Source of the DNA: Nereocystis luetkeana
Taxonomy: Eukaryota; Sar; Phaeophyceae; Laminariales; Laminariaceae
Length of the DNA: 64,000 nt
Direction of reading: 5' to 3'
NCBI GenBank assembly: GCA_031213475.1
Contig: JARUPZ010000016.1
Span: 2,909,140 to 2,973,139 of the forward strand
Shown: positions 6,701 through 37,700 of the stretch, one piece after another
Numbering within the stretch: the first letter of the stretch is position 1
How the letters are laid out: each line of letters begins with the position of its first letter
Notes under the pieces: generated by a model
Seen by the model: the letters and a program-made list of their open reading frames with translations, nothing else
What the model was told of the DNA's origin: nothing
Database searches by the model: none
Made by a program: the position numbers and the translations under genes

Positions 6701-9700
6701 TGAGGTGTGATGGTATCTCCACAACTCAAGAAAACACCCAAATATCGTTCGCGTGCGGCTGCTAAAACAACTACGGTAGTGTTCTACAATTGTACCTGGT
6801 ATTCGCTGTGTACTGGTACCTACCACTCTGTGCGGAAATATAAGAACCGTTTATACATTCATATTAATGTCAATACGTCCTTATATTTACGCCCACCTAG
6901 AGTGGTACCTGGTATGTGTTATCGGGGTTGTACTTTCAAGTATTCTTTCAATGGTCAAGTTTAGGGAGCTACGGCAAGGATTGAGGCTTTGGAAGTACCT
7001 ATTACGGGGGACCATAGTAAAGAGGACCTACGGTACACACAAAAACCTACATATTCCCCTATTTTCACTAACAATATTTAGTCCTATTTACTATGGCCCC
7101 CCATCATGATAGCTCCTCGCGCGAGGAAGGAGCCTCACAGAGAATCGGTGCACCCCTAGCGTAGCATGCCTCAACGGGACTATCCCGAATCCCGCACAAA
7201 CCCGCGGGATAAATTCCGCTGGAAAAATCCCGAAGATTGCTCTGGTGGGAAAAAATCGGTGCAGCCCTACCGTAGCATGCCTCCACGGGACTATCCCGGA
7301 TGCCGCACAAACCGCGGGATAAACTCCGCGGGAAACATCCCAAATATTGCCCTGCTAGGAAACAATCGGCGCACCCCTACGTACCGTAGCATGTCTCCAC
7401 GGGATTGCCCCGAATCCCGCAAAAAAAAAAACGCGGGAAAAATCCCGAAGATTGCCCTGCTGGAAAAAAAAAATGGTGCATTCCTAGCTAGCGTAGCATG
7501 CCTCCTCACCCTTGTGAGCGGGGTTCTCTAAAGCTCTGCAGCTCCGACGACCTTTCATGCGAGTGATGCCGTGGATGCAACCGATGCAGTGGCTCGCGTA
7601 CCTGCCAGGATACACCATCCCCCCCACCCCCCCTCCCGTCCTGCTCCGGTTCCAGAAGGATGAGTGGTCCATCAATAGTCGAATAAATGACTAAGGCAAG
7701 CAACAAAAATGAGTGCGCCTGCCCCCCCCCCCCACCCCCCCCCCCCCCCCCCCCCCCCCCGCCCCCCTGTACCGCCACCCTACACGAGCAAAACCCTAAA
7801 AATAACCTTAGACCTTGCTTACCTCTTGCCCACTCGGGTGGTGAACTCGCCCGTCTTGTGCAGCAACTTCGAAATGGACGGAACGCCGTAAGTTCGAAAC
7901 AGTGCAAACTCCAGCGCCTGTGTCGTGTCCACGTGCGAGGGGCGGAGGGGCCGGGGCGGGGGGAGGGGGGCGGGTACTCATGCCATGCATGTCCGTACGG
8001 AGGGGCAACGGGATCTTGTTTCGAACCGTTTCATCTCCGGGATTATCTTCTTCCCTGCCCTCCACCAGCGCAGACAGTCGGTAGAAGTTGAGGTGTCAGA
8101 TGACAGCAGTTACGAATGTCCACCAGCGTGAATTTATTTAAAGCGGGAGCTACCAACCCAGGGGGTACATGACAAAAAAAAAAAAAAAAAACTCCCAGAA
8201 AAAGGTCTAAACGAAGAACCAACCATTAATATTTTCTATACGAGTAGGCCGTGGGCCGGGATTTCTGGATGAAGTAGAAAAAAAAATGTTTTTCATTTAT
8301 TTTTGGAGGTGTGTTTTCACTTGGTTTTAGCATATAATCCCCTCCCCTTAATGTCTCGCCCCTATATGTTATAGGTAGGTTGGGTTGGCGTCGGTTCGTG
8401 AGCTAGACAACAAGGGTGCGGTTGATATTTTTTGTTGTTTTTTGTTGGGGGGGGGGGGGGGGGGGGGTTACAGCTGGTGGATCGAGTTAGATCGTTTGTG
8501 CGGGGTGGGGAACCTCTACTCCGCACAAGGGGAGTGGTCGTATCACGTAGGGTTTGTTTCATGACGAAGGCACCGACGAGGCAATTGCATGGTACCCCGA
8601 ATGCTGTCTCTGGAAGTGGCCACACCGGAAATTGAATGAAGCCATTGAGGCTGTCATCCGTATGCAAGTCCGCCTCACAAGAGGTTCCTTGTCGGGTGCA
8701 GCTCGCCCTCATGCGACTCGCCCAGTACCTCAAGGGATGCGAGGGTCTATGGTCATACGACTACGGCCATGCGAAATAAGAGTATCCCTTCCCCCCCCCC
8801 TTCCCCCACCTGCCCCGCTTCGAATGCTCCCCTCCTTCCCTCCCTCTTATTCCCTCCTCTATCCCGCCTCCCCCCCTCCCTCCCTCTCTCCCTGCCCCCC
8901 CCCCCTACCTCGCTCCTACATAAAGAATAAGTTACCTTTGTCACCATAAAAGGAAATTCTAGCATGGCAATCTGCCTGTACACAGCGGATGGGTCTGCCT
9001 TCACATCCATAAGTTGCATGTTACGAAGTCTGCAGCAACAGTAGTAGCAGCGCAGAAGCAGAAGCGATGAGAAACGAAAAGTAGAAGCAGCGACAAACGG
9101 CGACAGTAGAGCACGGGCGGGGGGGGGGGGGGGGGGGGCAGGGCAGGAGCACGGAGGAGGGGGAGGGGGTACTCATTATCATGCATGGCCTTAGTCGTAT
9201 ACCACAAGAGCCCAGGGGGGGGGGCGTACTCATTTGTTGCTTGCCTTAGTCATTTGGCCATTGACCACGCATCCCTTTCGAGACGGAGCACCGTTCCTAC
9301 TCCTAATAGAGACACCTCCAACAAATTGGGCGCTCATTACGTTGTTTCCATATATTACATAGAAACTTTTTGCTAATCTTATGGGGGGGGGGGGTACTCA
9401 TTTGTTGCTTGCCCTATTAATAGTCACATGACCATTGACCACGCATCCCTTTCGAGACGGAGGACTGAGGGGGGGAGGGGGGGCAGGGGGTGTGGGATCT
9501 ACCTACCATTACGGGGGGCCATTGTTAGTAGGACCTATGGTATACAAAAACCTATATATTTGATCATTTTTACTAACAATATTTGGTCCTACCTGGTATT
9601 TACTATGGTGTCCCGTAATAAGAGCTTCTTCAAGAACACGCGCAACTGGAATAATGATGCAGCTTGCGAGGCTGGATAAAATCGTTGTCTATGTTTTACC

Positions 9701-37401: not shown

Positions 37402-37700
37402 AATGTTTCTCGGCTTGGTGGTTGACTTCGCTCTGCTTGGCTCGGTCGTTTCGTGGCTGTTTTTCTTTCTGCAGCGAGCTGTGAAAGCGGTGTTGTAAAA
37501 CAAAATTGCACGTAATCACCGCGGACCCGATAGAAAAAAAGGCGCTACAGTATAAACCACACATAATATTAATAGTACCTGCTAGGAAATATGTGCGCGA
37601 AAATCATGCCCAAACTGGCATTGATTAACAATTGTGAACGCGGATTCCAACGATGCAAAAAGATTGTACGAAGTACCAGGTATACGTTAGTTAGTTAGTT
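37402..37700. other. No gene recognised
   Basis: Unique-looking spacer; a TACCAGGTA motif lies at 37674. Confidence 0.4.

Follow-up and report, generated by a model that had tools for sequence, protein, structure and literature searches.

Accounts of transposons of the Tc1/mariner type, in the passages cited here, equate excision footprints with overhangs (PMC7827188) and give the footprint as C(A/T)GTA for Sleeping Beauty and T(T/A)A for Hsmar1 (PMC3878927). Footprint length is put at 2-4 bp for Tc1/mariner elements (PMC7913693) and at 0-4 bp for Passer (PMC9976928). A passage on Stowaway elements describes putative footprints with as many as 6 nt in total (PMC1925063); the length limit is thus not absolute, and a scar of 5 nt would be uncommon without being unprecedented. 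The subject of this report is a 9-mer, TACCWGGTA, which occurs as TACCTGGTA or TACCAGGTA in a stretch of 64,000 nucleotides from Nereocystis luetkeana (GenBank assembly GCA_031213475.1, contig JARUPZ010000016.1, positions 2,909,140 to 2,973,139 of the forward strand), referred to below as the window. The 9-mer is probably a scar, left when the excision of a cut-and-paste transposon of the Tc1/mariner type was repaired; this element would insert at TA, duplicate the TA and have ends beginning CCAG.

The window contains 22 exact copies of TACCWGGTA, all within the 38.7 kb that precede a satellite array, and an exact-word count of the 64-kb window gave 0 copies after the array start. Dinucleotide shuffles (n = 100) gave a mean of 0.25 copies and a maximum of 2, an order-3 Markov model gave 0.45, and the flanks of the 22 copies are all distinct. 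A preliminary description of the window had counted 22 copies outside the array, far above chance, and the shuffles bear this out; 19 of its 22 start positions stand, and three are corrected here to 16578 (from 16579), 18814 (from 18824) and 25886 (from 25887). The genome searched comprises 465,085,209 bases on 1,987 contigs and contains TACCWGGTA 182,395 times versus 1,744 for the reversed-word control, with repeats included in both counts. The 9-mer is about 100 times commoner in the genome than expected, and the genome-wide excess on which the preliminary description had staked its reading is present. Finer counts were made in a sample of 238.7 kb, under 0.1% of the genome, made up of twenty 10-kb stretches (L009-L028) together with the window's opening 38.7 kb. 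The sample holds 99 copies, or 1 per 2.4 kb, which scales to a density of about 0.7 scars per 100 TA dinucleotides. The 6-base flanks of these 99 copies include at least 87 different sequences on either side, so the sample excess does not come from repeat families; the copies lie mostly in unrelated surroundings.

Comparison of repeat copies establishes directly that TACCWGGTA is an insertion at TA. The copy of a miniature inverted-repeat transposable element (MITE), MITE A, at 9590 in the window carries TACCTGGTA (9590..9598), and five of six paralogous alignments lack exactly 7 bp at this place, with TA in four and TG in one; the sixth paralog is more diverged and likewise has no insert. A MITE A copy without the insertion lies at 21876..21983 in the window and serves as an empty-site reference. 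A repeat containing GATC reads CTGTATGATCTA six times on the two strands of the first 38.7 kb and CTGTACCAGGTATGATCTA once, at 9851; the scar TACCAGGTA occupies 9854..9862 of this unit, where the other units have CTG-TA-TGATCTA. In the 3' region of a long interspersed nuclear element (LINE), a near-identical copy at 5312-5469 has TA where the copy at 16578 has TACCAGGTA (16578..16586). A MITE copy in stretch L026 of the sample is likewise filled relative to its paralogs, in ten alignments. Filled sites have a TA on each side of the insert and empty sites a single TA, the exception being the one 7-bp-lacking MITE paralog with TG. These alignments agree with the preliminary description, which had the 9-mer interrupting MITE A, the GATC repeat and the LINE 3' untranslated region with TA in the sister copies, and they show that the 9-mer was gained, not ancestral and lost in the sisters. 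The description had also pointed to a different insertion in a third LINE copy (about 11735). A different sequence, TACTGGGTGCTGGG, is indeed present there; it reads as a 7-bp near-tandem duplication and therefore neither supports nor refutes a footprint.

One TA of the abundant, 105-bp MITE A was surveyed with the pattern AAAACCTA-N{0,30}-TATATTTA, which has 8,776 matches in the genome versus 152 for the reversed control. Among the first 100 matches listed, 84 are empty and 16 are filled, 15 at that TA and 1 at the next. The fills are CCAGG (8), CCTGG (1), a tandem double CCTGG (1), CCAGGG (1), CCA (1), CCGGG (1), CCGG followed by CA (1), CCAGG minus one TA (1) and, at the neighbouring TA, CCTGG (1). 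The 100 matches contain no further insertion of up to 30 bp. The 100 matches, like the 59 tandem doubles considered below, are the first rows on contig C1 and not a random draw, and fills and doubles were counted by hand.

From these observations we infer an element, its transposase, an overhang chemistry and membership of the Tc1/mariner superfamily. Both ends of the element would begin 5'-CCAG, perhaps CCAGGGG, and on excision a short piece of the element end would stay on each flank. The cut would most likely be mainly 5-nt staggered and would leave self-annealing CCAGG overhangs, which pair with each other except for the central A opposite A. Joining and mismatch repair would then place either CCAGG or CCTGG between the two TAs. 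Overhangs of 6 nt would give CCAGGG or its complement CCCTGG, never CCTGGG, and overhangs of 4 nt would give CCAG or CTGG. The scars would accumulate over a long time and would themselves be hit again as TA targets.

The length variants and the asymmetry that this scheme predicts are directly observed. Cores of CCA, CCAG, CCAGG, CCAGGG and CCAGGGG were all found. The 6-nt form TACCAGGGTA occurs 11,422 times genome-wide and its mirror TACCTGGGTA 1,578 times, with reversed controls at 409 and 362, respectively (repeats included). The contrast was noticed in the sample, which has 9 versus 0, before the genome-wide count was made, and the window has one such variant with core CCAGGG at 24438..24447 on the minus strand (word match). 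Shorter forms show a predicted asymmetry in the sample as well, with TACCAGTA at 27 versus 9.6 expected against TACCTGTA at 12 versus 6.5. At the MITE A TA, CCAGGGGTA is present in 3 of 15 CCAGGGV rows, and 2 of these 3 continue into MITE sequence. The length series and the asymmetry are those of a core taken from the terminal sequence of an element, which would end in this sequence.

The scars are surrounded by a target preference such as a transposase would have. Comparison of the 198 flanks of the 99 sample scars with 26,390 TA sites gave the consensus W A N N A T R|TA, with chi-square values of 72, 72, 22, 27 and 51 at positions -7 (W), -6 (A), -3 (A), -2 (T) and -1 (R) and of 10.5 or less at the other nine flank positions. 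With the scars oriented by CCAGG, the frequencies on the left and right are 0.83 and 0.82 for W at -7, 0.54 and 0.49 for A at -6, and 0.84 and 0.82 for R at -1, an AT-rich, two-sided preference around the target TA. The zebrafish element ZB is reported, in the passage cited, to favour a palindromic AT repeat (PMC7913693). Favoured sites also appear to be used repeatedly. Tandem doubles (TACCWGGTACCWGGTA) number 15,917 genome-wide versus 2 for the reversed pattern, and about 1,300 are expected if each scar TA behaves as an average TA, which fits hot targets being hit again. Among the 59 plus-strand doubles listed, 19 have different centre bases. Replication slippage is disfavoured as the sole cause of the doubles because it cannot by itself make these 19. 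In IMG/VR, 9 stretches contain the double word. Words with one mismatch exceed expectation by about 144 per 198 exact words (both strands), which under constant accumulation points to a history long enough for divergence of up to about 25%. A constant-rate decay model puts the number of events roughly at 2.5 for every exact scar, about 450,000 in all; the mismatch excess and the decay estimate rest on the order-3 Markov model and the 238.7-kb sample.

These results support the interpretation, put forward in the preliminary description, that the 9-mers are footprints of a TA-target, Tc1/mariner-like transposon: the predicted length variants, the asymmetry between CCAGGG and CCTGGG and the two-sided target preference all held. 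A search of limited scope, described below, turned up no parent with such ends. In their placement at TA, their apparent derivation from an end sequence and their target, the scars work like Tc1/mariner excision footprints. Several observations weigh on the other side. The dominant core is 5 nt, outside the published 2-4 bp and 0-4 bp, and 3- and 4-nt cores are minor. The mirror form TACCTGGGTA exceeds its own reversed control (1,578 versus 362), and the counts include repeats, among them one tandem array with seven copies of TACCAGGGTA; this array lies at C1:1305185-1308362, where TACCAGGGTA recurs every 528 bp as a scar carried along in the repeat. The few 7-nt cores in the sample have no asymmetry (CCAGGGG 2, CCTGGGG 2), although two TACCTGGGGTATG places there sit inside one longer repeat. 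Single exact fills at the MITE A TA are biased, CCAGG 8 versus CCTGG 1, so some filled copies may share a scar by descent; the bias may reflect either such shared descent or an orientation effect. Doubles with the same centre base outnumber mixed ones (40 of the 59 listed), which leaves room for some duplication among them. The one-mismatch forms TACCTGGCA/TGCCAGGTA (16 in the sample) are commoner than TACCAGGCA/TGCCTGGTA (5), unlike the other one-mismatch scar forms.

A 5-nt stagger is also unnecessary, in that the same scar arises when end fragments CCA and GG, or CC and TGG, are joined. The scar may come from an ordinary 2-4 nt cut after which filled-in fragments of both ends are joined, an account that we consider possible but on balance doubtful. 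The ends then need to begin only with CCAG: CCA+GG would yield CCAGG, CC+TGG would yield CCTGG, and CCAG+GG would yield CCAGGG, with CCCTGG also formed and CCTGGG not, so fragment joining predicts the same asymmetry. The products of a 2+2 join, CCGG, and of a 3+3 join, CCATGG, are enriched in the sample at 22 versus 6.0 and 4 versus 0.6 expected (both strands; 11 and 2 places). The route further resembles a proposal made for grass Stowaway elements in a passage of PMC1925063, where putative footprints retain 2-4 bp next to one TA and 1-2 bp next to the second, as in TACTCC...AGTA. One 5-nt form dominates, however, at 99 places versus 11 for CCGG and 2 for CCATGG, and self-annealing 5-nt overhangs are the simpler source of it. 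The 5-nt stagger is therefore preferred over fragment joining, without a claim of proof.

The search for the parent element adds further points against an excision origin. The genome-wide part was aimed at CCAGGG, and ends consisting of CCAG and another base lie outside its scope. Occurrences of TACCAGGG that do not precede TA number 24,423 - 11,422 = 13,001, which is no higher than the roughly 15,700 that a Markov model gives when scaled up from sample counts; any parents with CCAGGG ends are therefore few or missing from the assembly. A query for CCAGGGV at the MITE A TA, which would miss CCAG followed by another base, returned 15 places and no recurrent sequence beyond; several of these are scars minus one base, and a few look like chance matches. 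Pfam DDE_3 had no match in the genome at E 0.001. Mariner PF01359 (Transposase_1) had none either, and this genome search is uninformative in that its control was also without any match. Pfam DDE_1, of the pogo-like branch of Tc1/mariner, gave 28 genome matches, and TACCAGGG or its complement is absent from 17 loci that cover 18 of the 28, in stretches that may not reach the element ends.

Repeats in the sample were inspected from their boundaries. Among the TA-flanked inverted repeats and the repeat boundaries at TA that were listed, none with CCWGG ends was seen; the TA-flanked repeats include MITE A, with TTACGGGGGACC ends, and a TTAACCC family. TACCWGG not followed by TA occurs as 114 words in the sample and early loci, and a few extensions recur. 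The recurring extensions TACCAGGCGGATTAGC (in LINE-like repeats), TACCTGGCAGGC (three times) and TACCTGGGGTATG were rejected as element ends: the upstream side is alike where examined, by eye for TACCAGGCGGATTAGC, and the extensions therefore lie inside longer repeats. Rfam searches of 7 of the 20 sample stretches gave no match, and Pfam searches of 4 window and 10 sample open reading frames found only RVT_1, in one frame of each set. Because the length of the core departs from that of published footprints and the element was not found, the scars are not settled members of the Tc1/mariner group.

One DDE_1 family with defined ends was recovered, and it bears on a second class of scars. Its three copies, at 23-2254 of L047, 37-2224 of L048 and 809-2786 of L052, are 2.0-2.2 kb long, show about 88-93% similarity along most of that length, and are flanked by a TA duplication with 27-bp inverted ends TA|CAGTACCGGCCCGCTAGTAAGAAAC (also TA|CAGTACCGG... 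and TA|CAGTACCGGCCCGC). In L052 the element occupies the TA of a TACCAGGTA scar. The ends of this family, the only one defined here, are CAG and do not begin CCAG, and by the model proposed above it is therefore not the parent of TACCWGGTA. TACAGTA is enriched in the sample (93 versus 37 expected), and one TACTGTA insertion was seen as presence or absence between copies. TACWGTA scars fit the CAG-ended element and would form a weaker scar class; that the fit is one of sequence alone counts among the points against. The exact end word TACAGTACCGG of this family occurs 0 times in the 238.7-kb sample. The CAG-ended element is rare beside its enriched putative scars, so a rare parent may have a precedent here.

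A more specific scenario can be put forward tentatively, and we consider it rather unlikely as a whole: a transposase with an unusual 5-nt stagger may have left several hundred thousand scars in the genome, with little or nothing of its element present in the assembly. Such a hit-and-run element may be very rare, extrachromosomal or usually fail to reinsert, and scars may be its main genomic mark.

Other small inserts at TA were seen as presence or absence among paralogs. The change from TA to TATTAATA, a 4-nt insertion, was found in five cases, at 9415..9422 and 32549..32556 of the window and at L013 4568, L016 7096 and L019 6282, and CTATTAATA is enriched in the sample (63 versus 2.1 expected). 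TATTATA was found in two cases, and TACTGTA, TACGAGTA and TACCAGTA in one each. The TA-flanked inserts TACGAGTA, TATTATA and TACTGTA lie at L018 587, window 5948, L025 715 and window 36502; in the window the 3-nt insertions TATTATA (5948..5954) and TACTGTA (36502..36508) are missing from aligned sister copies, as is TATTAATA at both of its window sites. The TACGAGTA insert resembles the Minos footprint. PiggyBac does not account for the TACCWGGTA scars: it targets TTAA and excises precisely, and here the target is TA and a scar remains. Separately, a family whose members measure about 90 bp and end in TTAACCCYTTTAG and its inverted copy occurs at 378-472 and 1604-1698 of L013, about 406-491 of L014 and 24302-24387 of the window, and is piggyBac-like in its TTAA and CCC ends.

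The remaining explanations dispense with excision. Direct insertion by some other TA-specific break-and-fill process, such as aborted integration or repair that copies a fixed end, would need no full element at any time. It agrees with the missing parent and with the fact that the scars far outnumber any CCAGGG-ended parents. We nevertheless consider it unlikely, since the target preference and the length series match published excision footprints, and the rare TA|CAG element beside enriched CAG scars suggests that parents can be rare. Very unlikely, in our view, is that the 9-mer is a functional palindromic site for protein binding or modification, maintained or propagated through selection or gene conversion. 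Cyanobacterial HIP1 is a model for such a palindrome, and CCWGG is a methylase target in bacteria. The very high copy number, the near-palindromic form and the dominance of the exact core would suit this account. It does not explain the exact gain of 7 bp at TA inside copies of transposable elements or the length variants of one sequence with a strand-specific asymmetry, and the one-mismatch excess of about 144 per 198 exact words is what neutral decay would give. An iterated palindrome of the HIP1 kind was rejected on the same ground, since insertion at a fixed target would not account for such a motif, and insertion at TA is observed here. That the 9-mer was ancestral in the repeat families and lost in sister copies is scarcely credible: no supporting point was found, 84 of the first 100 listed MITE copies are empty, the 16 with an insert vary in its length and centre base, and the window and sample copies have mostly unrelated flanks.

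The scars of the window, none of which is assigned a strand, are distributed as follows. In addition to the MITE A copy, TACCTGGTA is located at 6793..6801, 6906..6914, 23226..23234, 25871..25879, 32175..32183, 32234..32242 and 32729..32737 (exact-word matches), and at 35350..35358, where CCTGGCA follows directly as a possible decayed second copy. In addition to the copies in the GATC repeat and the LINE 3' region, TACCAGGTA is located at 9697..9705, 15264..15272, 18814..18822, 24712..24720, 25886..25894, 30750..30758, 30856..30864, 35749..35757, 37076..37084 and 37674..37682 (exact-word matches), and at 25262..25270, where CCTGGAA follows directly, again a possible decayed second copy. The remainder of the window, 38752-64000, is a large tandem array with a 189-bp period (Tandem Repeats Finder) in which a TTTG tract recurs mostly every 2.1 kb; this 25-kb array contains no TACCWGGTA copy. 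A fragment of a LINE-type reverse transcriptase (RVT_1, below the Pfam cut-off) lies at 17285-18499 on the minus strand. Elsewhere in the assembly, L043, L044 and L045, three 4-kb stretches from contigs C2, C872 and C1378, match one another at 100% identity across about 3.96-3.99 kb and represent either very recent copies or duplicated assembly.

The footprint studies consulted treat single loci or plasmid assays, and here a single 9-mer serves to count scars genome-wide. The scar word allows target preference, scar length, repair outcome and site re-use to be measured from sequence alone, and the scars are a record of transposon activity that is independent of element copy number. A 7-bp insertion would throw a reading frame out of register, and it contains AG|GT, which, as the preliminary description suggested, may create a splice site; the scars are thus an ample source of small mutations. 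Should the parent truly be absent, the question becomes how so active an element can leave so few copies. A literature search did not find the 9-mer as a whole word or genome-wide footprints on such a scale, which is weak evidence. In Ectocarpus, nearly 12,000 copies of Mariner-Tc1, a TA-type superfamily, are reported in the passage cited, and the word 'footprint' is absent from the main text of that account as consulted (PMC12477816).

The closest known counterparts each share part of this pattern. The TAC(A/T)GTA footprints of Sleeping Beauty and other Tc1/mariner elements have the same TA duplication, footprint equal to the overhang, odd-length near-palindrome, central A/T and AT-rich target. 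Unlike Sleeping Beauty, the core here is 5 nt (CCWGG) and not 3 nt, more than 180,000 exact scars are present in one genome, and the parent was not found here. The T(T/A)A of Hsmar1 between TAs matches in form the TATTATA insertions, a minor class here with 3 nt and not 5. The pogo-like DDE_1 element of this genome shares the TA duplication, but its ends are not CCAG, and their first 3 nt fit TACWGTA. Stowaway and Osmar5 footprints, as described in the cited passage of PMC1925063, are likewise TA-flanked fragments of terminal inverted repeats, up to 6 nt long, with repeated insertion at one TA; there, varied forms occur at a few loci, whereas here one dominant 5-nt form extends genome-wide.

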